IMG/VR virus record: IMGVR_UViG_3300048838_000262
Location: 1 to 41,891 of that record
Length of the DNA: 41,891 bases
From: a virus
Reading direction: 5' to 3' (one strand)
Shown here: piece by piece, positions 4,942-27,691 of the stretch
How positions within the stretch are numbered: the stretch's first letter is position 1
Layout: every line of letters begins with the position of its first letter
Notes under the pieces: model-generated
The model's input: the letters and a program-made list of their open reading frames with translations, nothing else
The model's database searches: none
What the model was told of the DNA's origin: nothing
Made by a program: the position numbers and the translations under genes

Positions 4942-7900
4942 ATGACGAAAACAGCGTTAGAGAAAGCTAATTATTCAACCTCCGTGTTGTACACCTATGA
5001 CCAAGCCTACAAGGCGTCTCTTGAGTATTTCAGGGGGGATGCTTTGGCGGCGAATGTCTTTGTGACCAAGTATGCGTTGCAGGACGGTAACAATGGGTTT
5101 TTGGAACTAACTCCAGATGACATGCACCAGCGATTGGCGAGGGAATTTGCTCGGATTGAGCAGAAGTATCCTAACCCGATGAGTTATGAGGAGATCTACA
5201 ACCTGTTCAAGAACTACGATGAGGTAGTGGCACAGGGGTCTCCTCAATCCGCGATTGGGAACCCTTTCAAGGTGCAAAGCACCTCCAACTGTTTTTTAGT
5301 GGCCCCACCACACGACTCTTATTCTGGTATCTTGATGACAGACCAAGAACAGGTTCAAATCATGAAACGTCGTGGTGGCGTAGGATTTGACATCTCTACT
5401 CTTCGACCTAAAGGGATGGCTACGGCTAATGCAGCAGGCACGACGGATGGGATTGAGATCTTCATGGATCGGTTTTCCAATTCGTGTCGAGAGGTCGCAC
5501 AATGTTTGGCAGAAGGGACTTTAGTTCTAACACGTAATGGATTGCAACCAATCGAAGATATTTCTCCAGGTTCATTAGTGTGGACAGCCAATGGTTGGGT
5601 TCCTGTACAAAAAGTTCTCAAGAACAGGAAACTTGTCCATAAAATGGTTACCCATAATGGGTATGAGATTTATGCTTCTGAGGACCATGTTTTTCACACA
5701 ATGGAAGGTGAGCTAGCTGTTGGAGAGCTAGGTCCGAACTCCCCTGTTTCCAACATTTTAGGAGAAGGTTGGGAAGGTTTTTCCATTGAAATGTCTTTAC
5801 CTAACATGGAAAACAGTGGGAACAGATTAAAGTCCTACTCGCTGCCCACGAAGATGACAACAGAGTTGGCCTATTTTCTAGGCCAACTCTATGGGGATGG
5901 TTCTATTAGTGTTGTCCCTAGAGTAACTACATCCAATCATGAATTGTCGGTTGCGTTGTCTAACGATTGGCCAACAGTAATTGACAAGATTAGAAATTGT
6001 GTGGAGACCACGTTTGTTGGCATTACTGCGAAAATTGAGCCGGGGGACGGTGATTGTCAGAGACTTCGAATCAGTTCCGAACAGATTGTTCAGTACTTGA
6101 AAGTCAATGGGTTCTTTAAGGTCAAGTCCCAGGACATCACATTCCCAACTCAGTTTTTGTCCGCCGATAAAGCATTGTTAGCAGCATTTATTGGTGGGTA
6201 TTTCGATGCGGACGGTTATGCGTCTGGTGCGAAGAAGGGTTACACATTTTCATCAACATCGAGGGATTTCCTTCAGACACTTAAAGTTGTTTTGGCGGCA
6301 CACGGGATTACGTCTTCTTGGCATCGCGAAGATCGTAGTGCGAAAGGGTGGAGAGACCTCTACAGTCTTTCCGTTGTTGGGGCGTCTAGTCAAAGACGGT
6401 TCATTGAACTCTTGAATGGTGAAAGTGAGAAAGTAAAAGAGAAGAATTTTGTTGCGAAACGTGATTGCACTCTGTCTATTTTTAGAAGTGCAGACTTAGG
6501 GGTGTCTTACAACAAATTCTTTTTTTGCCCAGACAACTCTCATTTATTGTCACGCAACACAGTGGATAGACTACGTGTTGAGGGTGTTTTACTACCTGAA
6601 GACAGTTCACGACTTGTTTTTGATAGAGTCTCTTCGATTACGGTGGCACAAGAGGAAAACACCTATGATCTTGTACTAGACGACGTTCACTTGTTTTTTG
6701 CTAATGGTCTGTATGCACATAACTGTGGTCGGCGTGGAGCTTTGATGTTGACGTTAAGTGTTCACCACCCGCAGGTTCGTGACTTCATCAACATCAAGAA
6801 GAACAGAACACGAGTCACCGGGGCGAACATTTCTCTACGCCTTTCAGACGAGTTCATGCGTGCAGTAGATGCCGGAGAAGACTATCGGCTTCGCTGGCCG
6901 GTTGACTCTAAGGAGCCTGTTGTTAGCGAGATGGTTTCTGCCAGAGAGATCTGGGACTTGATCAATCAGGCAGCATGGGAGTCAGCGGAACCAGGGTTGC
7001 TTTTCTGGGATACCGCGAAAAACATGACTCCCTCGGACATCTACTCGGACTATGGTTTTGCATCTACATCAACCAATCCGTGTATTGTAGGCGACACCCT
7101 GATTGCAGTAGCAGATGGTAGAAATGCTGTTTCTATTCGTCAGTTGGTGGAGGAGGGTAAAGACGTTCCTGTGTACTCCACTAACATAGAAACAGGTAAA
7201 GTGGAGATTAAATGGGGACGTAACCCACGCCTCACTAAGAAAAACGCCGAAGTTTGGAAGTTGATTCTTGATGATGGGAGCTATCTTATTGCCACCCCGG
7301 ACCACAAGATTATGAAGTCAGACTGCTCCTATGTAGAGCTTAAGGATTTACAGTCTGGAGAGTCCGTGTTTCCGTTCTATACCTTTGACTCTAATGGGTA
7401 TCGACAGGTGAGAAACACTGGTGAGAACTTCGTACATCAGGTGGTGAATAATCACAAGGTAGTAAGTGTAGAGAAATATGGTGTAGAGGATGTCTATAAC
7501 ATCACAGTTGATGACAACCATAACTACCATGTAGTCACTTCTACTGAGGACGACAAATACATCACCTCTTCAGGTTTGTGCGTTAAAAACTGCGGGGAAA
7601 TCGTTCTGTCAAATTACGACTCTTGTCGTCTTATGGTGCTCAATGTAACTACTTTTGTTGAGCACCCCTTCACCCCCAAGGCCAAGTTTAATTTCAAGCG
7701 ATACGTAGATTCCGTCATCAAAGCACAAAGACTCATGGATGACATGATTGACCTTGAGCTAGAACAGGTGGACAAGATTCTAGCCAAGATCGAAGTAGAC
7801 CCGGAGCCCGACTACGTAAAAGAAATCGAGCGGAGCCTGTGGTTGAAGATCCGACAGGCGGCGGTCAATGGTCGTCGTACAGGTTTGGGTATTACCGGGT

Positions 7901-9240
7901 TAGGTGATGCTGTAGCCATGATGAACTTGGTCTATGGTAAGGACGGGTCGTTTGAGTTCGTAGAGGATGCCTACAAGCACTTGGCAATTGGGTCTCACAC
8001 AAGTTCCATCATCATGGCCAAGGAACGTGGTGCCTTCCCTGTGTTTAATTACGATTTGGAGAAGGACCATGTGTACATGAAGCGCATTATTGATGCACTT
8101 CCAGAGGACATTCAGAAGCTCTACAAGAAGCATGGCCGTAGAAACATCGCCAACACGACAACAGCCCCCTGTGGTTCAATTTCCACACAGACTCAAACAA
8201 CATCGGGCATTGAGCCCGCGTACTTGATTCACTACACGAGACGAAAGAAAATCAATCCCAGTGAGGCGGATGCCAAGGTGGATTTCGTGGATGAATTAGG
8301 AGACAAATGGCAGCATTTCCATGTTCTCCATCACGGTTTTGAGCAGTGGTGCGTAGCAACGGGTCGAGACCCCAAGGTTGTTGCTCAGGCGTTGTATGAG
8401 GGGGATACCTCAGCTTTGAAGGCAAGCCCCTACTATGAGGCGACCAGTAATGACATTTCCTGGGTCAATAAAGTTCGCATCCAGGGTCTTGCTCAAAAAT
8501 GGATTGACCATGCGATCAGCAACACGACGAACTTGCCCAAGGATGTCACTGTGGATGTTGTGAAGCAGGTGTACATGGAGGGGTGGAAGTCCGGTTGCAA
8601 GGGAGTCACGGTATATCGTGACGGATGCCGTGATGGTGTTCTAGTCAGCGACACGAGCACGCCCAAGGCTGAAGATAAGGGGTTCGAGGAGCATGATGCT
8701 CCCCGTAGGCCCTTGGAGTTGGACTGTGAGGTTCACAGAACCCGAGTTCGTCATGGGGACGATTATGTAGACTGGACGATTTTCGTCGGTCTATTGGACG
8801 GAAAACCCTACGAGATTTTCGGGGGGATGAGTGAGTTCATCGAGTTGTCCAACAAGATTGAATCTGGTTGGATCGTCAAGAGAACCCTCAAGTCAAGTGC
8901 CCGTTATGACTTCCACTACGGAGATAAGGATGAACCCTCCGTAATTCGGGACATCGTAAAGACCTTCGACAATCCTAACCACGGGGTTTTCACCCGGATG
9001 TTGAGTTTGAGTTTGCGGCATGGAGCGGCTGTGCATCATGTGATTGAGCAGCTTCAGAGGGACAAGGACAGCGACCTTTTCAGCTTCAGTAAGGTCATGG
9101 CCCGTGTCTTGAAGAAATACGTCAAGGATGGCACCAAGTCCAGCATCCGTACCTGTCCCGATTGTGGTTCCGAGGGAACCTTGGTCTACCAGGAGGGTTG
9201 TGTGACCTGTACCGCTTGTGGTAGCTCCAAATGCGGGTGA
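4942..9240 (+). CDS. nrdJ: Class II (B12-dependent) ribonucleotide reductase with two inteins
   Basis: This 1432-aa precursor would splice to about 855 aa. It reduces ribonucleotides to deoxyribonucleotides with adenosylcobalamin, supplying DNA precursors. Seen in the sequence: an N-terminal STSNCFLVAP active-site cysteine; GRRGA; the NPCGE motif with the thiyl-radical cysteine, followed by SNYDSCRL; ITGLGDAV; TTAPCGSIS; SGIEPAYL; and a C-terminal Cys-rich tail (CPDCG...CTACGSSKCG) that re-reduces the active site. Inteins occupy residues 188-594 and 714-883. The second lies directly before the catalytic cysteine. A class II enzyme needs no small subunit, and none is found nearby. A hairpin-rich leader precedes the gene. 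Confidence 0.93.
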   Translation: MTKTALEKANYSTSVLYTYDQAYKASLEYFRGDALAANVFVTKYALQDGNNGFLELTPDDMHQRLAREFARIEQKYPNPMSYEEIYNLFKNYDEVVAQGSPQSAIGNPFKVQSTSNCFLVAPPHDSYSGILMTDQEQVQIMKRRGGVGFDISTLRPKGMATANAAGTTDGIEIFMDRFSNSCREVAQCLAEGTLVLTRNGLQPIEDISPGSLVWTANGWVPVQKVLKNRKLVHKMVTHNGYEIYASEDHVFHTMEGELAVGELGPNSPVSNILGEGWEGFSIEMSLPNMENSGNRLKSYSLPTKMTTELAYFLGQLYGDGSISVVPRVTTSNHELSVALSNDWPTVIDKIRNCVETTFVGITAKIEPGDGDCQRLRISSEQIVQYLKVNGFFKVKSQDITFPTQFLSADKALLAAFIGGYFDADGYASGAKKGYTFSSTSRDFLQTLKVVLAAHGITSSWHREDRSAKGWRDLYSLSVVGASSQRRFIELLNGESEKVKEKNFVAKRDCTLSIFRSADLGVSYNKFFFCPDNSHLLSRNTVDRLRVEGVLLPEDSSRLVFDRVSSITVAQEENTYDLVLDDVHLFFANGLYAHNCGRRGALMLTLSVHHPQVRDFINIKKNRTRVTGANISLRLSDEFMRAVDAGEDYRLRWPVDSKEPVVSEMVSAREIWDLINQAAWESAEPGLLFWDTAKNMTPSDIYSDYGFASTSTNPCIVGDTLIAVADGRNAVSIRQLVEEGKDVPVYSTNIETGKVEIKWGRNPRLTKKNAEVWKLILDDGSYLIATPDHKIMKSDCSYVELKDLQSGESVFPFYTFDSNGYRQVRNTGENFVHQVVNNHKVVSVEKYGVEDVYNITVDDNHNYHVVTSTEDDKYITSSGLCVKNCGEIVLSNYDSCRLMVLNVTTFVEHPFTPKAKFNFKRYVDSVIKAQRLMDDMIDLELEQVDKILAKIEVDPEPDYVKEIERSLWLKIRQAAVNGRRTGLGITGLGDAVAMMNLVYGKDGSFEFVEDAYKHLAIGSHTSSIIMAKERGAFPVFNYDLEKDHVYMKRIIDALPEDIQKLYKKHGRRNIANTTTAPCGSISTQTQTTSGIEPAYLIHYTRRKKINPSEADAKVDFVDELGDKWQHFHVLHHGFEQWCVATGRDPKVVAQALYEGDTSALKASPYYEATSNDISWVNKVRIQGLAQKWIDHAISNTTNLPKDVTVDVVKQVYMEGWKSGCKGVTVYRDGCRDGVLVSDTSTPKAEDKGFEEHDAPRRPLELDCEVHRTRVRHGDDYVDWTIFVGLLDGKPYEIFGGMSEFIELSNKIESGWIVKRTLKSSARYDFHYGDKDEPSVIRDIVKTFDNPNHGVFTRMLSLSLRHGAAVHHVIEQLQRDKDSDLFSFSKVMARVLKKYVKDGTKSSIRTCPDCGSEGTLVYQEGCVTCTACGSSKCG
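5503..6723 (+). mobile_element. Intein 1 with LAGLIDADG homing endonuclease
   Basis: The element covers residues 188-594 of the reductase (407 aa). It starts with Cys (CLAEGTLVLT, block A), has block B near EDHVFHT, and ends with an Ala-His-Asn block G followed by Cys of the host protein (CGRRGA). Two endonuclease motifs are visible: LAYFLGQLYGDGS and LLAAFIGGYFDADGYAS, so it encodes a dodecapeptide homing endonuclease. All splicing residues look intact (Cys1, His-Asn, Cys+1). Its codon use is more AT-rich than that of the flanking extein, in keeping with a mobile element. Confidence 0.92.
7081..7590 (+). other. Intein 2, mini-intein without endonuclease
   Basis: The element covers residues 714-883 (170 aa). 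It begins CIVGDTLIAV, contains the block B motif ATPDHKI and block F YNITVDDNHNYHV, and ends in VKN before the extein sequence CGEIVLSNYD. It is far too short to hold an endonuclease. The penultimate residue is Lys instead of the usual His. It interrupts the reductase exactly before the catalytic cysteine of NPCGE, so activity depends on splicing. Confidence 0.9.
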
Positions 9241-17760: not shown

Positions 17761-18843
17761 ATGCCGATTAAAGTACGTGTCCAGAACTTCCAGTCGTTGG
17801 AAGACGTGTCTCTGACCATTGACGGCTTTACGGTTGTCACTGGTACCAACAATGCCGGAAAATCGGCGTTGTTCAGAGCCATACAAGGTGTGTTTATGAA
17901 CACACCGGGCACTAGCTTTGTTCGGCATGGGTCGAATCATTCTTCGGTTGAACTCCAATTCGACGAAAACCATACGGTGGTATGGGAGAAGGGGAATAAA
18001 GTCAACCGATATGTGATCAATGGCAAGGTGTTCGATAATGTTGGGGCTGGGACACCTTTGGAGCTAACCGAGTTCGGTGTGAACCCTGTCACGCTTCAAG
18101 AACAGAAATACTGGCCCCAGATTGCCCCTCAGTTGAGGGGCGTCAATTTCCTGTTGGATAAACCCGGTTCCGTACTAGCGGAAGCTATCGCTGACGTAGA
18201 TAGGGTCAACCAACTAAATCGTGCTCTCAAGCTCTGTGACAGCGACCGAAAGAAAGCCAAGGGGGATCTTCGAGTTCGGCGTGAAGACGCCAAGGAACTA
18301 CAACAGAAGCTCACTCATTACCACGGGTTGGATACTTGGGTAGAGAAAATCTCCCAAGTGGAGACTAGGAAAACCAAGCTCGAAAAAATGATGGCTTTGT
18401 GTGAGGAGCTAGCTACCCTGAAAGCTCGTCGAGATCGAGCGCGTCTTGAACTTGATGCTCTTGACGGTGTGGGCTCTCTGTCTGTACCCTCTGAAAATCA
18501 AGCACAGAAAATTCGAGAGGTCAAGCAAAGACTGATAGAGGTTCGGGAGTTGAGCAAGCGATTGTCTACGGCTCGACAGGCGGTAGATGTCGCCAAGGAT
18601 GTCCCCGAGATCTCTATCCCCGACATGGCGAAAGCACAGAAGGCGCAAAAAATCAAGCACCTTTTGGATGAGTGTGTTTCTCTCCGTACTAGACTACGAA
18701 ACGCGCAAGTCGCGCAAAAAGACGCGGATACCCAGGCCGCAGCCTCACAAGGCAAGCTGGAGCAAGCCTTAGCAGAGATTGCTTCCATGTTTGACGGGGT
18801 GAATGAGTGTCCTACTTGCGGACAGATCCTCTGTAAAGAGTAG
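17761..18843 (+). CDS. Rad50/SbcC N-terminal half ending at the zinc hook
   Basis: This 360-aa protein has an ABC-type N-lobe: the strand FQSLEDVSLTIDG, Walker A GTNNAGKS at residues 28-35 and a Q-loop region (TLQEQKYWPQ). From about residue 150 it is a coiled coil. It ends with CPTCGQ (Cys350 and Cys353), the CxxC zinc hook, only seven residues before the stop. The returning coiled coil, signature motif and Walker B of a normal Rad50 (600-1300 aa) are absent here, but a matching C-terminal half is encoded at 23409-24068. The two probably assemble with the Mre11-like nuclease at 20033. Confidence 0.85.
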   Translation: MPIKVRVQNFQSLEDVSLTIDGFTVVTGTNNAGKSALFRAIQGVFMNTPGTSFVRHGSNHSSVELQFDENHTVVWEKGNKVNRYVINGKVFDNVGAGTPLELTEFGVNPVTLQEQKYWPQIAPQLRGVNFLLDKPGSVLAEAIADVDRVNQLNRALKLCDSDRKKAKGDLRVRREDAKELQQKLTHYHGLDTWVEKISQVETRKTKLEKMMALCEELATLKARRDRARLELDALDGVGSLSVPSENQAQKIREVKQRLIEVRELSKRLSTARQAVDVAKDVPEISIPDMAKAQKAQKIKHLLDECVSLRTRLRNAQVAQKDADTQAAASQGKLEQALAEIASMFDGVNECPTCGQILCKE

Positions 18844-18861
18844 GTCTACGATGGCGTTTAG
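18831..18861 (+). promoter_or_regulatory. Bipartite promoter-like motif, copy 6
   Basis: TGTAAA (18832-18837) and GTTTAG (18856-18861) have an 18-bp spacer. The first box lies inside the end of the Rad50 N-half gene. The ATG of the nucleotidyltransferase gene is 8 nt beyond the second box, as for copies 2 and 3, with no Shine-Dalgarno sequence between. Confidence 0.5.
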
Positions 18862-18869
18862 ATCTTGTC

Positions 18870-20036
18870 ATGCACTTCGACATTGACCAGCACACGATTT
18901 TCTTGGGGTTGTCCGGTTCCCATGCGTATGGGATGGCTCGACCTACGTCGGACGTGGACGTTCGAGGTGTGTGTGTCCCACCGGATACGGTGCGTCGGTC
19001 GTTTTGGAAGACTTTCGAGCAGTATCAAACCATGAACCAGGAAGGTTCATGGGGTCCACGCTCCACCGAGGCGATGCACAAGATTTTCGTGCATCCTACG
19101 GCTGGCCCTTCCTACGAGGTTCACCGGAAGCTCGATCTGACGATTTTCGACATCACGAAGTATGTTCGTTTGGCTGCTGATGCCAACCCCAACGTGCTTG
19201 AGTTGATTTTCCTCGACCAGCGTGACGTTCTCCAGTCTACAGACGAATGGGATTTGCTCCGCGCAAACCGTGACCTTTTCTTGAGCAAGAAGGTCAAGTA
19301 TACGTACACCGGGTACGCGCACTCGCAACTCCAGCGTATTGAGTCTCATCGTAAGTGGTTGCTCAATCCCCCCAAGCAAGAGCCCACTCGTGCGGACTTC
19401 GGACTACCAGAGTCGTCCCTAATCCCCTCGAATGTTCGGGACCAGATTGAGGAGACTGTCCAGTTGATGATTCGTCAATGGCTGTCCGAGGACAACTTGG
19501 AGTTGAGCGGGGCAGCACAGGACGTGCTACGGATGCGTATTCAGGATTTCTATGCCGCTTCGATGGGCGTCGATGTCAAGGATCTACAGGAGTCGATGTA
19601 CCTTGTGGCGGCTACGACACTTGGAATTACGGATGACGTGCTCCATGTTGTCAAGCAGGAGAAGCGATACCGTAGCGCCCGTCAAAACTGGCAGAAATAC
19701 CAGACGTGGAAGCGTGAACGAAACGAGGCTCGTAGTGAGCTAGAAGCCAAGCATGGATTCGACACTAAGCACGCTAGTCACCTAATTCGACTGATGCGCA
19801 CGGGGTTGGAAATTTTGCAGGGGAAGGGGCTGCAAGTGAAGCGCCCTGATGCCGAGGAATTGATGTCTATTCGTGACGGCGCTTGGTCCTATGAGCATCT
19901 AATGGAGCAGGCAAAAATGCTGGAGGATCAGATTTCCGAGGCGTACAAGACGAGCGTATTGCCTAATTCCCCAGACCGTGAGAAAATCGATCAGGTGCTC
20001 ATGAACGCCATCGAAATGGCGTATAAGCATGGATGA
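18870..20036 (+). CDS. RlaP-type nucleotidyltransferase (pol-beta superfamily)
   Basis: This 388-aa protein has the pol-beta fold signature GLSGSHAYGMARPTSDVDVRG: the GSxxxG turn and the paired Asp residues that bind metal and nucleotide. Next come FDITKYVRLAADANPNVLELIFLD and a helical region, as in the predicted nucleotidyltransferases of the COG3541/RlaP type seen in many large phages. The target of nucleotide transfer is unknown; RNA or protein is possible. It lies between the two Rad50/Mre11 partners yet carries its own early-type promoter motif. Its stop overlaps the Mre11 start by 4 bp. Confidence 0.8.
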   Translation: MHFDIDQHTIFLGLSGSHAYGMARPTSDVDVRGVCVPPDTVRRSFWKTFEQYQTMNQEGSWGPRSTEAMHKIFVHPTAGPSYEVHRKLDLTIFDITKYVRLAADANPNVLELIFLDQRDVLQSTDEWDLLRANRDLFLSKKVKYTYTGYAHSQLQRIESHRKWLLNPPKQEPTRADFGLPESSLIPSNVRDQIEETVQLMIRQWLSEDNLELSGAAQDVLRMRIQDFYAASMGVDVKDLQESMYLVAATTLGITDDVLHVVKQEKRYRSARQNWQKYQTWKRERNEARSELEAKHGFDTKHASHLIRLMRTGLEILQGKGLQVKRPDAEELMSIRDGAWSYEHLMEQAKMLEDQISEAYKTSVLPNSPDREKIDQVLMNAIEMAYKHG

Positions 20037-21046
20037 TTAGGTTAGTCTGGCGCACGGACGTTCATTGCTCCGACCATACTCCGTCCAGTCGCACTGACGA
20101 TTGGATGACAGAGGTACTAGATAGTCTCCAACAGGTAGGTGATATCGCCCTACGTGTTGGAGCTAATGCTATTTTGGACGGGGGAGATTTTTTTGATCCC
20201 AAGGTGCCCATGCGCATTAGTCACAAGCTGATGCAACGGGTTATTTCTCTCCATTCGACATACCCTTGTCCGGTCTATGCAAATGTCGGTAATCACGATT
20301 GTCGTCAGAGTCAGCTATCGGCCCTTCCAGAAGGCCCCTTGGGCTCCCTCATGGAGTCAGGGGTGTTCAAGCGATGCTACACGGTTCGAGATAAGGGACA
20401 GATCGTAGATCGACATTCGGTTGTGTTCGACGACTATGCCCGTAAGGTCAGGGTTGAAGGAATACCCTACCACGGACCTAAATACGACATGTCCTACTTC
20501 AAGGACATCCAGAAGGGGGACGCTGATTATTTAGTGGTCATGGCCCACGTTCTAGCCTCACCCCAGGGCGGGTCTATGTTTGCCGGAGAGGATATTGTTC
20601 GTTACTCCGACCTACTGGAGTTAAACCCGGAGGTGGATGTATGGATGTTCGGTCACTGGCATCAGGACCAGGGGGTTACTGAGATCGCTCCGAACAAGTG
20701 GGTCGTGAATATTGGTTCATTGACGCGAGGTTCCTTGACCCAAGATAACATCACTCGGATTCCAGGGGTCGCAGTCATCTCCTTTGGAGAAGTCGGTAGT
20801 GGTGGCAGGATTGATGTTCAAGTAGAGCGGCTGAATGTACGGCCCGCAGAGGAGGTGTTTGATCTCCAGAAGCGAGTCCGTGAGGAGGCCAAGGCGATGA
20901 CAATTGATGCCTTCGTGAACGAGGTACAGGAGTCATTGACCAAACGTGAGAAGGGTGAACTCACGGAGAGTATTCAGGGAATGAACATCCCCAACGCAGT
21001 GAAAGAAAGGACTTTGGAGCTACTAGAGAGGGCTTCTAAGCGGTAA
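20033..21046 (+). CDS. Mre11/SbcD-like nuclease
   Basis: This 337-aa protein is a calcineurin-like metallophosphoesterase of the Mre11/SbcD type (T4 gp47). All metal-binding motifs are visible: DVHCSDH (D9, H11), ILDGGDFFD, VGNHD, MAHVLAS and FGHWHQDQG. The C-terminal part (about 250-337) is the capping and Rad50-binding region, with charged helices. It processes DNA ends together with Rad50. It is translationally coupled to the nucleotidyltransferase gene and followed within 8 bp by a Cas4-like nuclease. Confidence 0.9.
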   Translation: MIRLVWRTDVHCSDHTPSSRTDDWMTEVLDSLQQVGDIALRVGANAILDGGDFFDPKVPMRISHKLMQRVISLHSTYPCPVYANVGNHDCRQSQLSALPEGPLGSLMESGVFKRCYTVRDKGQIVDRHSVVFDDYARKVRVEGIPYHGPKYDMSYFKDIQKGDADYLVVMAHVLASPQGGSMFAGEDIVRYSDLLELNPEVDVWMFGHWHQDQGVTEIAPNKWVVNIGSLTRGSLTQDNITRIPGVAVISFGEVGSGGRIDVQVERLNVRPAEEVFDLQKRVREEAKAMTIDAFVNEVQESLTKREKGELTESIQGMNIPNAVKERTLELLERASKR

Positions 21047-21054
21047 TATCAAGC

Positions 21055-21996
21055 ATGGCAAACATGAAGCCTTTGTTCTGGTCGCATTTGTACGACTACG
21101 AAAACTGCCCCCAGAAATTCCTGTGGACTTATGGGTGGGTTACTATTGACCTTGGAAATGGTTTGGGCAAGGGTAAGACCAAACCAGAGAGTTCTCGGCA
21201 TCATGCCGTCATGGGAATTGTCATCCAGGGTGTGTTGGAAGACTTGTACAACAAGGAGCTATGGAAGGATACGTCCGCTCCCCTGGAAACCACGCTTCGT
21301 AAGCTCACCGCTGAAAAACTATCCAAGGAACTTCAGAGAAATTACGTCGATTGGGGGAAGATCTCCTTTGAGGAGATTCATGACACTTGCGAGAACGGTG
21401 TCCTGGGGTATTTGAAGACCATGAAGGGTCAAAAGCTACTTGGACCTTATGCGAAGTCCGAGGTTGAGCTAAAAGCTCAGTTGACGGATGACCTAGTGAT
21501 TTCTGGACGTGCGGACTTCATCATTCAGAGGGAGGACAGCGGGGTGATGATCTTGGACGGCAAGAACAGCAAGACCAAGATGAAAAACGTGAACCCTGAC
21601 CAGTTGCGCTACTACGCCCTGTGTTTCTCTCTGATTCACCAAGCCTTACCCGATCGTTTGGCCTTCGTGTGGTTTCGCTACCCCTATGACGAATCCATTG
21701 GGGAGTCCGGGGTGGATTGGATTGAGTACACAAGCAGGGACTTGAAGTCGCTTTCGGATAGAGCAGTTGTTGCTCGTCAGGGTATGATCAAGGAGGATTT
21801 TCCCGCAAATCCTCAACCCTCCTACTGTAAAAACTGTGACTTTGAGGACATGTGTCCAGAGCGACAGGCACAGAAGGAAAATAACCGGAGAAAACGGGGT
21901 AAGAAAGGTTCGTCACTCCCTATCGTGACGGACAACAACTATCTGAAAAATGGTCCGGTCGAGATTGGGTTTTCCATAGACGACCTTTTGGAGTAA
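21055..21996 (+). CDS. PD-(D/E)XK nuclease with Fe-S cysteines (Cas4/RecB-like)
   Basis: This 313-aa protein starts with an S-x-L-x-x-Y-x-x-C-P motif (SHLYDYENCPQKF, Cys18) and has the nuclease core SGRADFIIQ...VMILDGKNSK, which supplies the Asp, Asp and Lys of PD-(D/E)XK, followed by the motif III helix QLRYYALCF. Three more cysteines sit at 258, 261 and 267 (YCKNCDFEDMC). One N-terminal and three C-terminal cysteines are the 4Fe-4S pattern of Cas4 and AddB. It probably acts as a single-strand exonuclease in recombination or end processing. No CRISPR array or other cas gene is present. Confidence 0.87.
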   Translation: MANMKPLFWSHLYDYENCPQKFLWTYGWVTIDLGNGLGKGKTKPESSRHHAVMGIVIQGVLEDLYNKELWKDTSAPLETTLRKLTAEKLSKELQRNYVDWGKISFEEIHDTCENGVLGYLKTMKGQKLLGPYAKSEVELKAQLTDDLVISGRADFIIQREDSGVMILDGKNSKTKMKNVNPDQLRYYALCFSLIHQALPDRLAFVWFRYPYDESIGESGVDWIEYTSRDLKSLSDRAVVARQGMIKEDFPANPQPSYCKNCDFEDMCPERQAQKENNRRKRGKKGSSLPIVTDNNYLKNGPVEIGFSIDDLLE

Positions 21997-22003
21997 TACG
22001 GAT

Positions 22004-22273
22004 ATGGATTTGGATGACAAACTGAGTTCGCTGATTAAGCGACGGAGTTCGCTTGAAACTGAAGTCCAGCGATTGCAGGGACGTAAGGAGCAAGCGGAGA
22101 AAAACCTGGCCCAGATTGAGGAGGAATGTCGGTCGAAAAAGATTGATCCCTCCAAGATTGATGAGGTCATTGCAGAGCTAGAGAGACTTTACGTGTCTCA
22201 AGTCGAAGAACTTGAGACTGACATCAAAAATGCTGAGCAGGCTTTGAGTGCATACACAGGAGATTCAAGATGA
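22004..22273 (+). CDS. Small coiled-coil protein, 89 aa
   Basis: The whole chain has a heptad pattern: LIKRRSSLETEVQRLQGRKEQ, a short break at KKIDPSK, then IAELERLYVSQVEELETDIK. It is one long helical hairpin. It lies between the Mre11/Cas4 genes and the clamp gene and overlaps the clamp start by 4 bp. Given the split Rad50 on either side, it could supply missing coiled-coil material or bridge the halves, but this is speculation. It has no zinc-hook cysteine pair. Confidence 0.7.
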   Translation: MDLDDKLSSLIKRRSSLETEVQRLQGRKEQAEKNLAQIEEECRSKKIDPSKIDEVIAELERLYVSQVEELETDIKNAEQALSAYTGDSR

Positions 22274-23412
22274 AAATTGAGGTTACTAAGAGAGATTTAG
22301 AGAGTGCCCTACAGGTAGTGACTATTGCGGCGGCTAGCACGGGTAGTGATTTGACCACCCACCTAGTTTTCCGTACACAGAACGAGAGAACCGAGGTTCT
22401 AGCCAACAATGGTCGCATTGGTTTGGTTTCCCCCTTGATTTGTAAGTCCTCCGATGAGGGGTCTTTTACGGTTGAGGCGTGGCGACTGAAACAGTGGATT
22501 TCTGCCGTCGAGGATTCGGTACTTACCCTAGAGTACGAAAACCACAAGGTTACGGCGTCTAGTCCCAAGGGATCGGTCAAGTTCAGTTCCTTGGACCCCG
22601 AGCATTTCCCCTATTGGGATGAGACCTTCTCCGCGACGGAGAAGGGGTACACGATGAAGGCCCGTCAGCTACATGCCGCCCTAAATCACGTCAAGATGTT
22701 CATTTCGGACAAGGACGTGAAGCGCCCTGCCTTGGCCGTGACCGAGATTAAGGAAGTCAACGGCAAGCGGCTACTCATGGCAACGGATAAGGCTTCTCTG
22801 GGCGTTGTAGAGCTTCCCGTGTTCGCAACCGCAAATTTCCGAGTGCATGGGAAAGACATCCCCTCCCTCAATGCGTTTCTAGGCGCATCCGGTGAGGAAG
22901 ACGTGGAGGTTCGTGAGCATTCGTCCCGTATGTTCATTATTCGTGGGGATGGGAGCATCCTCAATGTTGGACGCCCCGCTCATGCCTTCCCTGATATCAA
23001 CGTCTCGGATGAGGAGGACCAGTATCTTGTGACTGTCAAGGTAGCAGACCTAAAATCCTCGCTTAGCGCGCTCGCTGCTGGTGCATCCAAGGAGGATACC
23101 CGAGTATCTTTCCGAGTCGGAAAGGGCGAGTTGTACGTCAGTATGGCTAGCGCATCGGGTTCCAAGGACACTCTCCACATGGAGATTCAGGAGTTGAAGA
23201 TTAAGGAGGAGGCCCCCTCCCTTCCAGACACAGGGTTCGATCTTCCCAACACTTACGTCCTCAAGGCCCTGTCACAGACCAAGAATGACACGATCACCCT
23301 TGGTGTGAACGCAAAACTCAATGACCAGGGCAAGGTCAAGAGTGGATACGTCCGCATTAAAGAATCGCGTGACAGTGGGGTATACACGACAGTCCTAGTC
23401 TGGTTGACATGA
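22270..23412 (+). CDS. dnaN: DnaN-like sliding clamp (beta clamp)
   Basis: This 380-aa protein has the length and three-domain layout of a bacterial beta clamp. Seen are the N-terminal KIEVTKRDLESALQVV, the LLMATDKASLGVVELP segment matching the ATDGHRLA region, AHAFPDI matching the RFPD motif, and repeated VTVKVADLKSSL / ADL-type domain starts. The C-terminus ends VLVWLT rather than the usual MPMRL. The clamp tethers DNA polymerase to DNA and is loaded by the delta, delta-prime and DnaX-like proteins also encoded in this window. Genes on both sides overlap it by 4 bp. Confidence 0.8.
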   Translation: MKIEVTKRDLESALQVVTIAAASTGSDLTTHLVFRTQNERTEVLANNGRIGLVSPLICKSSDEGSFTVEAWRLKQWISAVEDSVLTLEYENHKVTASSPKGSVKFSSLDPEHFPYWDETFSATEKGYTMKARQLHAALNHVKMFISDKDVKRPALAVTEIKEVNGKRLLMATDKASLGVVELPVFATANFRVHGKDIPSLNAFLGASGEEDVEVREHSSRMFIIRGDGSILNVGRPAHAFPDINVSDEEDQYLVTVKVADLKSSLSALAAGASKEDTRVSFRVGKGELYVSMASASGSKDTLHMEIQELKIKEEAPSLPDTGFDLPNTYVLKALSQTKNDTITLGVNAKLNDQGKVKSGYVRIKESRDSGVYTTVLVWLT

Positions 23413-24068
23413 GTTCGTTGACTCCCCCACCTTCCGTTTCCAAGGCTACCGCTCTTCTTCACCGGGCGGTAGCCTTGCGTGACGCTATCCAAAATCAGGT
23501 GGTGGAAAACGACTCTAAAATCAAGGCTCTGGAGAATGAGGAGCAGCTACTTGAATTGGTAGCTGCCCTCATCAAGCGTTTAATTGACGAGGAGGTAACG
23601 GATGGTGTATCAGCGATTGAGAAACTGCAAACCGAGGGCTTGCAGGAAATTTTCTATGACCAGAACCTCTCCGTGAAGACCGAACTCGACGAACAGCGTG
23701 GTAAAATATCCGTGACCATGTACACGGTAGAGAAACGGGAGGATGGGACCGAAATCCAAGGGATGAGCGATGACCTTTTCGGAGGTGCTGTTCTTACTAT
23801 GGAAGAGGTTTTCATGCGTATCTCGGTTATCTACCGTCGAGGGTTACGTCCCTTCCTCATTATGGATGAGACTTTGGCAGCGGTGGCAGATAAGTATGTG
23901 GACAGGGCGGCTGGCTTTTTGTCTACTCTGTGTGAGCGTTTAGGTTTCGACATGCTCCTTATCAGTCACGATGATGCGGTTGTGGGAGCGGCACAGACGG
24001 CGTATCATGTAGACAAGGTTGGGACAAAAGCGAAATTTAAACCTCTGGTCAGAAAGGCTAGCGAATGA
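23409..24068 (+). CDS. Rad50/SbcC C-terminal half (ABC ATPase C-lobe)
   Basis: This 219-aa protein begins with a coiled coil (about residues 12-75), then has the C-lobe of an SMC/Rad50 ATPase: a degenerate signature LFGGAV (about 123-128, where LSGGE or LSGGQ is usual), Walker B FLIMDE (149-154) with the following D-loop, and the H-loop LLISHDD (near 190). It has no Walker A and no zinc hook. These are exactly the parts missing from the protein at 17761-18843, so the two should form one ATPase head. It overlaps the clamp gene by 4 bp. A stand-alone ABC-type fragment with another job is less likely. Confidence 0.8.
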   Translation: MSSLTPPPSVSKATALLHRAVALRDAIQNQVVENDSKIKALENEEQLLELVAALIKRLIDEEVTDGVSAIEKLQTEGLQEIFYDQNLSVKTELDEQRGKISVTMYTVEKREDGTEIQGMSDDLFGGAVLTMEEVFMRISVIYRRGLRPFLIMDETLAAVADKYVDRAAGFLSTLCERLGFDMLLISHDDAVVGAAQTAYHVDKVGTKAKFKPLVRKASE

Positions 24069-24535
24069 AAACCGAGAGTCAAATTCGCCACAAGCTGAAG
24101 CAGGTTATTTTCCGTCACAAGAAGAAATTTCTTGAGGCGAGAATGAAGTGCTCTCCAGAAAACTGTGCTAGCAATAAGCTAGTCAAGTTACGAACCCCTC
24201 ATGGTCACCAGAATTTCCGAGTCTGCGCATTCAAAAATGACAGCGTGGATCAAACAGACATGATCTGCGACCCGAACATGGGAGGGATGAAACAGGCGGA
24301 ATCCTGCCCTTATTTCACCCTTCGCTATGAGGCAGAGATCTTGAAAGACATGTTTGCGTCAAGGCTTGGGCTGGATGGGACCGAGGTTGAGTTCAGTTTT
24401 TTGGCCAAGGAGTACCCGGATGTAATCGCCCTCCTGTGGGTGTTAGGGGATTCGACCCCGGATAAGCAAGGGGTGTTTAGCCTCTCTCGTGTGTTCCAGA
24501 ACATAGACTTGGAGAATGAAGATGACGGAACCTAA
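24065..24535 (+). CDS. Hypothetical Cys-containing protein, 156 aa
   Basis: The basic N-terminus (IRHKLKQVIFRHKKKFLEAR) is followed by five cysteines spread over residues 29-81 (MKCSPENC, RVCAF, MICDP, ESCPYF), so a zinc or Fe-S site is likely. The C-terminal half is helical and acidic. I cannot name it. It is coupled by 4-bp overlap to the Rad50 C-half and overlaps the next gene, which in turn overlaps the primase. It might supply a nucleic-acid-binding zinc module to the primase, which lacks one, but this is a guess. Confidence 0.6.
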   Translation: MKTESQIRHKLKQVIFRHKKKFLEARMKCSPENCASNKLVKLRTPHGHQNFRVCAFKNDSVDQTDMICDPNMGGMKQAESCPYFTLRYEAEILKDMFASRLGLDGTEVEFSFLAKEYPDVIALLWVLGDSTPDKQGVFSLSRVFQNIDLENEDDGT

Positions 24536-25058
24536 CAACTCGATTGCCGAATTGGTCAACCTGAACCACCTGATCAAAAACAAGCAGGTTCCTCTCCTCA
24601 TGGAGTTTGAGGTAAACCCGGATTTAGCCCCCTTCTTGGTGAGTTCCCCCAAGGGCCTGATATGGATCGAGAAAGCCGGAGAAAACAGTCAAGTCCGGGC
24701 GGCTCCTACAAAAATGAGTTATCTTCAGAGGAACCTGCTATTGGACCTTCTGGAGAAGTCTATTGAGGAACGGTGGGGAAATGTGTTCCCTATGTCAGAG
24801 GAAGGCGTAAAAGCCTGCCTCGAACATCTCAATGAATTTGGGGAGATTGAGATTTTAGCTCATCCGAAACAGGACACTTTTGGACAAGAAGTTGTTCAGG
24901 TTTCTTGGGTTCCCAAGGGATGCCTTGTATTCGTTCCAAAGGAACGAGGGTACCTTGGAAGCATTGGGGTATTCAGAACGGGTGAGAAGGTTGTGTTGAT
25001 CCACAATCCTAGACTTGGGGTTGCAATCGCCTATGACAATGCAACAGTGGTTGAGTGA
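24522..25058 (+). CDS. Hypothetical protein, 178 aa
   Basis: I do not recognise this protein. It has an N-terminal beta-rich part (PLLMEFEVNPDLAPFLV, LIWIEKAG), a middle helical stretch (SYLQRNLLLDLLEKSIEERWG) resembling a small winged-helix, and a C-terminal beta part. The ATG at 24522 is preferred because GGAG lies 7 nt before it; ATG 24516 adds two residues. It overlaps the upstream gene by 14 bp and the primase gene by 26 bp, so it is part of the same translationally coupled run and may be a primase partner. Confidence 0.65.
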   Translation: MTEPNNSIAELVNLNHLIKNKQVPLLMEFEVNPDLAPFLVSSPKGLIWIEKAGENSQVRAAPTKMSYLQRNLLLDLLEKSIEERWGNVFPMSEEGVKACLEHLNEFGEIEILAHPKQDTFGQEVVQVSWVPKGCLVFVPKERGYLGSIGVFRTGEKVVLIHNPRLGVAIAYDNATVVE

Positions 25059-25716
25059 AGCCTTTCGTGACTCTTATTTGAGCGAGGAGGCTCGGGACTA
25101 CCTTTTGGCTCGTGGGGCTTTGTCGAACACGATTGAGGAGATGGGGGTGGTAACTTTTGTCCCTCCTGTGTCAGAGTGTCCTAGCCCCGAGTTCGCTACT
25201 AAGTTCGGGAAGCACTTCGAGTTTTTTGAGGGAAAACTCATGTTTCCGATTTACAGTCCTCTGGGAGCCCTCATTGGTTTCGACTCCCGAAGCGTTGAGG
25301 CCAAGGATTTGATCCGTTTCCACTTGAAGGAAGCCTCCTGGAATCCCGTGTTTCATGGGATGCCCAAAGCGATGCACCGGATCTGGAAGGGGGCGGACAT
25401 TTGGATTGTCGAGGGGGTGTTCGATTTGTTCGCCCTGGAACATATCCTCCCTGACTGTGCTATTATCGGGGTTGGACCAGCGCACTTGAACTTTAAACAC
25501 TTGGAGTTCCTACGAAGGTGGAAAAACCATGTCAACCTTTGCTTGGACCAAGATGATGCGGGTCGGAGAGGGATGAAGAAAGCCTTCGAGGATCTACAAA
25601 GATGGAAGATCTCGTGTAGAATGGTCGCGTATGGTAAGACCGGGGATGATCCCGGTGCAATTTGGACTCGCGGAGGCGTAAAGAGCTTGCAAGAGTCATT
25701 CAAACTCTACTTGTGA
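25033..25716 (+). CDS. DnaG-like primase core with Toprim domain
   Basis: This 227-aa protein has a KLMFPIYSPLGALIGFDSRSV segment split by its usual turn (the DnaG G-R-x-x-F-P-I / G-F-G-G-R region) and a Toprim domain with IVEGVFDLFAL (catalytic Glu) and CLDQDDAGRRG (the DxD pair). It probably makes RNA primers for replication. It lacks the N-terminal zinc-binding domain and the helicase-binding C-terminus of bacterial DnaG (about 600 aa), so partners are expected. The ATG at 25033 is chosen over an upstream in-frame TTG. It overlaps the preceding gene. Confidence 0.8.
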   Translation: MTMQQWLSEAFRDSYLSEEARDYLLARGALSNTIEEMGVVTFVPPVSECPSPEFATKFGKHFEFFEGKLMFPIYSPLGALIGFDSRSVEAKDLIRFHLKEASWNPVFHGMPKAMHRIWKGADIWIVEGVFDLFALEHILPDCAIIGVGPAHLNFKHLEFLRRWKNHVNLCLDQDDAGRRGMKKAFEDLQRWKISCRMVAYGKTGDDPGAIWTRGGVKSLQESFKLYL

Positions 25717-25730
25717 AAGGAAACACTACT

Positions 25731-26261
25731 ATGGCAATGGATATGTGGAAAGCGGGTCCAGAGACCCAAAAGATGATGATCGACCTTATCAATCAGTATC
25801 ACCCAAGTCTCGTTCTGATCCAGGATGAGATCGTGATTATCTTCCGTGAGAAGGCAAGTGCCTCCAACGGGCAGGTGTGCTTGGGTAAGACGAAGAAAGC
25901 ACCTCCGTCGTTGGCTCTCTTGACGGACAAGAACTATCAGTACCGTTTCGTCATCGAACTTGCTGGGGACCAGTGGAACACTCTGAACGACACGCAGCGA
26001 ATGGCCCTTATCGACCATCACCTGTGCTCCATTGTCGTGGAGGAGGATGCTAACTCGGGTGAGATCAAGTGCTCGATTCGTCAGCCGGACTTCACGGGAT
26101 TCAAGGATGAGGTTGCTCGCTGGGGTATGTGGCGTCCGCTGGACGATGAAACCCTTACCGCCGTCGAGAAGATGTTCGAGGGTGCGGCTAAGGACGCTCC
26201 CAAGAAGCGTAGTCGCGCTGCGGGTGACGCTGCCGACATTATTGACAACGCGATGAACTGA
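25731..26261 (+). CDS. Phage metallopeptidase-like protein with degenerate active site
   Basis: This 176-aa protein matches the layout of the putative phage metallopeptidase family: an N-terminal strand region, FVIELAGDQWNTLNDTQRMALIDH, then VVEEDANSG and PDFTGFKDEVARWGMW. Family members carry HELCH after the helix; here the string is HHLCS, so the catalytic Glu and second His are both missing. It is therefore probably not a peptidase and may have a binding role. The C-terminus is basic and Ala-rich (KKRSRAAGDAADII). AAAGGAAA precedes the ATG. Confidence 0.65.
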   Translation: MAMDMWKAGPETQKMMIDLINQYHPSLVLIQDEIVIIFREKASASNGQVCLGKTKKAPPSLALLTDKNYQYRFVIELAGDQWNTLNDTQRMALIDHHLCSIVVEEDANSGEIKCSIRQPDFTGFKDEVARWGMWRPLDDETLTAVEKMFEGAAKDAPKKRSRAAGDAADIIDNAMN

Positions 26262-26269
26262 GGTGTTGT

Positions 26270-27691
26270 TTGAGCCTTGACGACAAATACCGTCCTAGAG
26301 CGTACAGTGATGTACTAGGGCAGAAATCGACCATTTCTGTTCTAAAGGAGTTGGTCAAAAAGCGTCAAGGCTTTCGGCAAAGCTATGTCTTTGCTGGACA
26401 GTTTGGCTCTGGCAAAACTACCCAAGCACGTATTTTTGCCAGAGCCCTACTGTGCGAATCCCCTGTGGATGGGGAGGCATGTGACAAATGCCCCTCCTGT
26501 TTGACTATGCTTGATCCCATGAGAACCCACGAAGATTTCGTGGAGGTGGATGCGGCGAATCACTCCAAAAAGGAGGACATCGCCCAAATCGTGGAGGATA
26601 TCAAGTACGGCTCCTTTTCTGGCAGACAACGGCTCTACCTTTTTGACGAGAGCCATGAGTTGTCCAAGTCAGCGATGGATGCCCTTCTACTTCCCCTGGA
26701 GAATACTCGCCCTGGTACCGAGGATAAACAGCTAGTCTGTATTTTCTGTACTACGGAGCCCTCGAAAATGCGGGGTGCTATTCTTTCTCGTTGCGCTCCT
26801 GTGTTCAAGATTGAGGTGATGCCTCCAGACGCTATTGCAGACTATCTGGCGATGATTTGCGATAAAGAGGGGTTCGAGTATGAACCCCAGGCGTTGAAGA
26901 TTATTGCCGAGTCTACCGAGTGTCACATTCGTGACTGTCTGAAAGCCCTAGAGGGGATCTCTACTGTTGGCAAGGTGGACGTGACCAATGTTACGACCTA
27001 CCTCCAAATGGACGCTAATCCGTTGTTCCTCGACGTGTTAGATAACATCGGAGGCGACTTTGCGAAGGTTCTTGATGCCTGTCAGCAATTGTCCATGAAG
27101 GTGTCTCCCGCAACGGCTTATGAGAGCCTGGCAGAGTTGTCCATGTTGGCGTACCGCACGGTCCATGCTCCAGGCGTGGCAATCCCATCTTTCTGGGATT
27201 CCGCTAGGATCAAGCAAGTGGGGACCAAGCACTCTGAATTCTTAATTCAGTTCGCACAGGTGTTTGGGTCACGCCCCGCACACTCGAACCACTCGATGCT
27301 TTTGTGCGACATTTCTTCGCTGCACCAAAAAAGAACGGGGTTGGTGGTTCAGGCGACTTCAACCCAAGTCGTAAATCTACCCGTACAACAGGCACAAGGC
27401 CCTGAAATCGGGCATAGTCAACTTAAACAGATTGACTTGTCGAATTCTGCGCCGATCGCGGATCAAAAACCAAGTAACTATGGTAATATGGAACCAGTAG
27501 TCACAGCACTTGGGGTCTATGTAGACCCAAGAGCCCAAGGTTTAAACTCACATGTTCCAACGATCGGAAATTCGAAAGTACCTGCTTTGTCCTCGAACGA
27601 ATTCGCTGATATTCTGCACCGTAGGGTTGTGGAGTTGACGGAGGAAAACCGTGGCGGATCGTCGAGACGGAATAACGTGGGTAGCTCTTGA
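26270..27691 (+). CDS. dnaX: DnaX-like clamp-loader ATPase (gamma/tau)
   Basis: This 473-aa protein has the DnaX layout: KYRPRAYSDVLGQ at the N-terminus, Walker A GQFGSGKT at residues 43-50, a zinc motif C-x8-C-x2-C-x2-C in CESPVDGEACDKCPSC, Walker B LYLFDESHEL, LLLPLENT, sensor 1 FCTTEP and the SRC motif ILSRCAPVF. The region after about residue 360 is Gln/Ser-rich and not conserved. It drives ATP-dependent clamp loading. The start is TTG at 26270, supported by GAGG about 6 nt upstream and by the fit to the family's first residues. It overlaps the NusG-like gene by 41 bp. Confidence 0.9.
   Translation: MSLDDKYRPRAYSDVLGQKSTISVLKELVKKRQGFRQSYVFAGQFGSGKTTQARIFARALLCESPVDGEACDKCPSCLTMLDPMRTHEDFVEVDAANHSKKEDIAQIVEDIKYGSFSGRQRLYLFDESHELSKSAMDALLLPLENTRPGTEDKQLVCIFCTTEPSKMRGAILSRCAPVFKIEVMPPDAIADYLAMICDKEGFEYEPQALKIIAESTECHIRDCLKALEGISTVGKVDVTNVTTYLQMDANPLFLDVLDNIGGDFAKVLDACQQLSMKVSPATAYESLAELSMLAYRTVHAPGVAIPSFWDSARIKQVGTKHSEFLIQFAQVFGSRPAHSNHSMLLCDISSLHQKRTGLVVQATSTQVVNLPVQQAQGPEIGHSQLKQIDLSNSAPIADQKPSNYGNMEPVVTALGVYVDPRAQGLNSHVPTIGNSKVPALSSNEFADILHRRVVELTEENRGGSSRRNNVGSS

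Follow-up and report, generated by a model that had tools for sequence, protein, structure and literature searches.

By the usual description, Rad50 is a single chain: its two halves zip up as a long coiled coil that turns at the zinc hook, and it is on the continuity of this coiled coil that models of signalling from the hook to the ATPase head rest. Can such an enzyme be encoded in pieces, with its hook at a free C-terminus? The question is raised by the virus record IMGVR_UViG_3300048838_000262, a genome fragment of 41,891 bases that was analysed over its whole length (hereafter the window) and in which separate genes encode an N-terminal and a C-terminal part of a Rad50/SbcC-type protein (N-half and C-half, Table 1). 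Judged by sequence, these genes probably represent a conserved two-gene Rad50, which probably comprises three subunits together with a small coiled-coil protein (S) encoded between them. It is considered highly likely that a Rad50/SbcC-type ATPase is encoded here in pieces and works with the adjacent Mre11 in phage DNA-end processing and recombination.

The N-half matches the Pfam domains AAA_23 and AAA_15 and the PHROGs family phrog_16465 ("exonuclease", 3.9e-19). Its profile matches Rad50 5f3w_B (1e-12), and the last 70 profile positions, the hook-proximal end, match the solved Rad50 fragment 6zff. An AlphaFold model reached a mean predicted local distance difference test (pLDDT) score of 87.5 and a predicted template modelling (pTM) score of 0.44; its top fold match in the PDB is the Rad50 N fragment 1f2u, while the path of the arm is uncertain because of the low pTM. 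The Walker A motif placed at residues 28-35 by the initial annotation was confirmed, its two glycines and the lysine being invariant in the homologues, and the Q-loop glutamine (Q124) is kept in 58 of 61 N-halves. The protein terminates in ...NECPTCGQILCKE, directly followed by the stop codon. The same annotation had put the stop seven residues after CPTCGQ; the chain does end at the hook, but the stop lies five residues after CPTCGQ and seven after the second hook cysteine. The hook cysteines of the N-half are conserved beyond chance (61/61).

The C-half begins with a helix spanning residues 10-81 and was matched to phrog_15167 ("ATPase", 6.8e-16). A profile of 12 diverse C-half sequences aligned over nearly the full length with the C-half of Pyrococcus furiosus Rad50 (3qkr_B, 5e-14; 1ii8_B, 2e-13), and the remaining leading matches were multi-piece matches to ABC transporters. 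The AlphaFold model (mean pLDDT 94.3, pTM 0.79) resembles SMC/Rad50 heads, with 5h66_B (1e-8) as best match and 1ii8_B at 6e-7. Neither Walker A/P-loop nor CxxC was found in the C-half protein examined. Motifs and model thus bear out the original description of a protein that starts in a coiled coil and carries the LFGGAV signature, Walker B and H-loop without Walker A or hook. The motifs of the two proteins are complementary, with Walker A, Q-loop and hook in the N-half and the signature GG, Walker B and H-loop in the C-half. Both were placed in the Rad50/SMC class by profile and fold, in agreement with the proposal that together they make up one Rad50, and the profile searches assigned neither to an unrelated ABC family. 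A C-half of this type in Bacillus velezensis plasmid p3 (L150:5677-6312) carries the annotation chromosome partitioning protein ParA.

Splitting of a single gene is a common artefact, and a broken, frameshifted or mis-assembled Rad50 had to be considered first. Scans of IMG/VR seeded with the N-half yielded more than 60 N-halves after removal of near-identical sequences (alignment of 61 rows), and the resulting counts apply to this family rather than to phage SbcC in general. A broad alignment of 10 N sequences offered no segment of sufficient conservation for scanning a collection. In the first N-seeded set, 50 of 52 intact N proteins stop 2-18 residues past the CxxC. No open reading frame (ORF) matched both halves, save three unrelated ABC proteins from a loose genome scan. 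The reciprocal scan seeded with the C-half recovered an N-half at 84 of 106 non-redundant C loci, and in 82 of these 84 the protein ended at the hook; none of the 106 loci contained a long C ORF that included a Walker A. The split is also present in the isolated phages Tunturi_5 (Tunturiibacter), Magritte (Microbacterium), vB_BboS-125 (Bacillus) and Mvi-JY20 (Microcystis) and in the metagenomic 485-kb phage LR745208. The break falls at an identical point, just past the hook, in a diverse set of 61 N-halves; the Walker motifs to either side of it are intact, other genes separate the halves, and five named phage genomes as well as plasmids show the same split. The artefact explanation is thus refuted by independent assemblies and retains a practically negligible probability. 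A full-length Rad50 was found neither in the window nor in the named phage genomes, and a search with phrog_77 returned no full-length SbcC in Tunturi_5, Magritte, LR745208 or the window. Numerous related phages as well as plasmids thus share the split; the architecture departs from single-chain Rad50, as the initial annotation had stressed, but is widespread rather than a rare oddity. According to these sequence comparisons, a split Rad50 is encoded by many viruses of bacteria and by some plasmids of Bacillales. Cellular sampling consisted of plasmids and one metagenome-assembled genome (MAG): a single scan of genome contigs with a loose P-loop pattern gave 34 matches, among which N-half, Mre11 and C-half occurred together only in L075, a Syntrophobacteraceae MAG.

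Gene order bears on whether the halves belong to one enzyme. The N-half gene precedes the C-half gene in 57 of 57 non-redundant loci with both halves. Mre11 is encoded in 56 of these loci and S, located between N and C, likewise in 56; the orders are N-Mre11-S-C in 45 loci, N-S-C-Mre11 in seven and (Mre11-N)-S-C in three. The Mre11 active-site residues D9, H11, D52, H88, H172 and H210 are kept in 55 of 55 proteins. On plasmids of Paenibacillus, Aneurinibacillus and Geobacillus, Mre11 and the N-half form one fusion protein that ends about 15-20 residues after the hook and is followed by S and C, the latter two or three genes past the fusion. As Rosetta-stone evidence, the fusion points to the N-half as the partner of Mre11. 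Plasmid p3 of B. velezensis carries N, S and C followed by Mre11. In Bacillus phage vB_BboS-125, an AP2-domain gene (gp33, L148:7398-7970), possibly a homing-endonuclease-like insertion, is located between the N-half and S.

The N- and C-half could also be SMC-like proteins that act independently, each with a job of its own, a view to which the distance of tens of kilobases between their genes in Tunturi_5 and Magritte and the degenerate signature of the C-half would be congenial. It is nevertheless quite improbable, since the motifs missing from one half are present in the other and all are conserved, since exactly one N and one C locus are found in each of the five named phage genomes, and since the C-half gene follows closely on the Mre11-N fusions.

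Even less probable, to a degree that makes it hardly credible, is a joining of the halves into one chain after transcription or translation by trans-splicing or a split intein. Inteins do occur elsewhere in the window, in the ribonucleotide reductase, but no intein or Hint domain was detected in N or C by the Pfam scan, and the N-half stops at its own stop codon just past the hook in nearly all homologues. The ribonucleotide reductase large subunit (4942-9240; 1432 amino acids) appears to be intein-interrupted, with Hint/Intein_splicing signals near residues 188-229 and 722-863 and a LAGLIDADG domain at 413-491.

In the two-gene Rad50 favoured here, the N- and C-half would associate non-covalently into one ABC head, comparable to the crystallised two-chain heads of P. 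furiosus Rad50. In their structures (1f2t, 1f2u and 1ii8) the N and C parts are distinct chains, which shows that a head can form without a covalent connection. Two such heads would sandwich ATP and bind Mre11, and the free C-termini of two N-halves would come together in a Zn(Cys)4 site that links the two arms. S may pack on the arm or the hook region and take the place of the hook-proximal stretch that the return strand lacks. For zinc-mediated dimers of hook peptides, a logK12 of 19.19 was reported with 14 residues and of 20.74 with 45; the coiled coil contributes no more than 2.1 kcal/mol (PMC5093744). Since the 14-residue peptide keeps most of the stability, hooking does not depend on the return helix, and a free C-terminal hook with few trailing residues plausibly still dimerises with zinc, as short hook peptides do.

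S belongs to the Rad50 module as a conserved third gene, and genomic context points to a probable role as subunit. Its homologues are mostly 77-110 amino acids long, with two helices flanking a turn that resembles G-[VI]-D-P or F-G-V-x-T. Searches against the PDB returned only coiled-coil noise. The tail of the N-half (9 residues), S (89) and the C-half up to the signature (about 124) add up to about 222 residues, compared with about 180 between hook and signature in T4 gp46. S could instead be a mere neighbour of a Rad50 formed by N and C, for example an accessory protein of the clamp or a nuclease; it is poorly conserved and of low complexity, it directly precedes the clamp gene in the window and close relatives, and it has no sequence match to T4 gp46. 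In most loci the gap between S and C amounts to about 1.1 kb, the size of a clamp gene, and a clamp gene was observed there in the window, L002, L005 and L006. Where this gap is not present, S often overlaps or abuts C. The neighbour explanation is regarded as unlikely, albeit with an appreciable chance, given that S always lies between N and C where it occurs and that it touches or nearly touches C without a clamp in L063, L067, L071, L075, L143, L147, L149-L151 and L153, Mre11-N plasmid modules included.

Several observations weigh against a three-subunit Rad50 of this kind. No CxxC is present in the N-halves of Magritte (gp155, L004:9992-11044) and L233, from which it follows that the hook can be lost in some lineages. 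The signature serine and glutamate are not conserved in the C-half, so ATP sandwiching may differ. The structure models are of single chains, and it is we who infer the association of N and C. The lack of a match between S and T4 gp46 belongs here as well. Finally, the arm length of the N-half is uncorrelated with the length of the C-half (rho 0.03, n = 43) and of S (rho 0.01, n = 29); because of this independence, the distal arm cannot be a simple coiled coil of N and C.

The arm length follows a regularity of its own. The distance from Walker A to hook is not continuous among N-halves; it clusters near 275, 322, 365 and 410 residues, and the arm varies in steps of about 44-47 amino acids (e.g. 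L069:7065-8300 and L002:13995-15359). The vector strength of this periodicity was 0.60 at about 47 residues, compared with values of up to 0.36 for 99.9% of a smoothed null in which shared ancestry was left out of the model. Loops of the type phi-x-phi-P are repeated about 44 residues apart (positions 232, 277 and 322 in L069). The idea that every such loop reverses the direction of the helix was dropped, as odd and even module numbers both occur and the hook would then alternate between ends. A tentative reading, rated somewhat below an even chance, is that the arm consists of the N-half alone, built from repeatable units of about 44-47 residues instead of an antiparallel N/C coil, with S as a detachable component at the arm or hook; head and hook might then communicate without a continuous return strand, or under gating by S.

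Compared with Rad50/SbcC of the Escherichia coli SbcC and P. furiosus Rad50 type, the system shares the two-lobe ABC head, Walker A, Q-loop, Walker B, H-loop, the CPxC hook and the Mre11/SbcD partner. The canonical protein is one chain, whereas two genes and S are found here; an antiparallel coiled coil running through the hook (position 506 of 1048 in E. coli SbcC) connects its lobes, whereas here the hook is located at a free C-terminus; and of its LSGGE/Q signature the GG is kept while serine and glutamate are lost. In its working the system would resemble Mre11-Rad50 (SbcCD, gp46/47); lacking both the one-chain form with hook and an LSGGE signature, it is classed as a split variant of Rad50. 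A globular hinge domain of SMC proteins (condensin/cohesin type) was not found in the Pfam scan, and a CPxC hook is present instead. The best NCBIfam match of the N-half, NF045487 for archaea-specific SMC-related proteins, remained far below the cut-off (43.5 versus 300 bits). These proteins (ClsN/Sph; PMC9389158) bear hooks too but are archaeal single chains with the hook in mid-chain.

Among phage systems, T4 gp46/gp47 shares the location of Mre11-Rad50 beside the sliding clamp and a short arm, the distance from Walker A to hook being about 252 residues in gp46 and 258-290 in the shortest N-half class. However, gp46 of T4 type, taken from the same collection as a contrast, is a single chain of 560 amino acids whose hook sits mid-chain at residue 288, with about 270 residues still to follow. 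The T4 gp46 signature, SEGE, departs from LSGGE as well, yet keeps serine and glutamate, unlike the C-half. Both in T4 (L298, 30000-36000) and in the window (17761-27691), the Mre11-Rad50 genes adjoin those for sliding clamp and clamp loader.

Mre11-Rad50 fusions of the Mimivirus R555 type differ in extent: R555 is a full fusion, those of the Bacillales plasmids contain the N-half only, and the genes are separate in the window. Protein A7KV18 of Bacillus phage 0305phi8-36 was match 3 of the N-half model in BFVD and is therefore very likely an Mre11-N fusion of the split-Rad50 family. In the accessible part of a 2011 paper (PMC3175470), one P-loop NTPase segment is reported as not observed in the proteins of 0305phi8-36 and Anaerostipes, and no description of a separate C-half for them was found in that part. 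The families phrog_16465 and phrog_15167, which contain the N-half and the C-half, are annotated with unrelated functions and not linked as one enzyme. A review on jumbo phages treats SbcC as an ordinary ortholog (PMC7824862). No description of a split or bipartite Rad50 or SbcC was found in the open-access literature, subscription journals and preprints lying outside the search. The split accounts for two misleading but widespread phage labels ("exonuclease", "ATPase") and for the unexplained observation of the 2011 paper.

A C-terminal hook on a separate half-protein breaks with the textbook one-chain hairpin design of the DNA-break ATPase Rad50. The chain is naturally cut exactly at the hook, the hook cysteines are as strictly conserved as Walker A, and a small third subunit is probably added. 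Such a split system offers a direct way to ask which arm segments tethering, ATP control and nuclease gating require.

Table 1. Coordinates of the split Rad50 module and the genes interspersed with it (positions refer to the window).
Feature	Position	Strand	Remarks
Rad50/SbcC N-half, 360 amino acids	17761-18843	+	P-loop lobe and Q-loop; helical arm with zinc hook at the C-terminus
Walker A GTNNAGKS, residues 28-35	17842-17865	+	G28, G33 and K34 in 61/61 homologues
Zinc hook CPTC, residues 350-353	18808-18819	+	Stop 7 residues on; C350 and C353 in 61/61, P351 in 56/61
RlaP-type nucleotidyltransferase	18870-20036		phrog_388, 1e-64; between N-half and Mre11
Mre11/SbcD nuclease	20033-21046	+	All phosphoesterase motifs; Metallophos 1.9e-13; sbcd subfamily match
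PD-(D/E)XK/Cas4-like nuclease	21055-21996		Between N-half and C-half
S, coiled-coil protein, 89 amino acids	22004-22273	+	Probable third Rad50 subunit; homologue in 56/57 loci
Sliding clamp	22270-23412		Between S and C-half
Rad50/SbcC C-half, 219 amino acids	23409-24068	+	72-residue helix, then lobe with signature, Walker B and H-loop
Degenerate signature LFGGAV, residues 123-128	23775-23792	+	GG kept in 40-42/43; Ser 2/43; Glu 0/43
Walker B FLIMDE, residues 149-154	23853-23870	+	D153 and E154 in 43/43
H-loop His187	23967-23969	+	After next strand; 40/43

The genes lying between the two halves had been given as Mre11 and a small coiled-coil protein; both are there, but the list was incomplete, as the RlaP-type nucleotidyltransferase, the PD-(D/E)XK nuclease and the sliding clamp have to be added. 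RecA, clamp, clamp loader, a RecD2-like helicase and the Cas4-like nuclease are encoded near the Rad50 halves, a neighbourhood consistent with participation in recombination-dependent replication, the role of T4 gp46/47. For the RlaP-type nucleotidyltransferase we know of no tie to Rad50; an ORF resembling it holds the equivalent place in L006. Downstream of the C-half (24065-25716), three short ORFs are located ahead of the clamp loader gene. Matches to the primase Toprim domain and, in part, to DnaG_N were confined to the last of the three, for which reason the primase may be encoded in pieces too.

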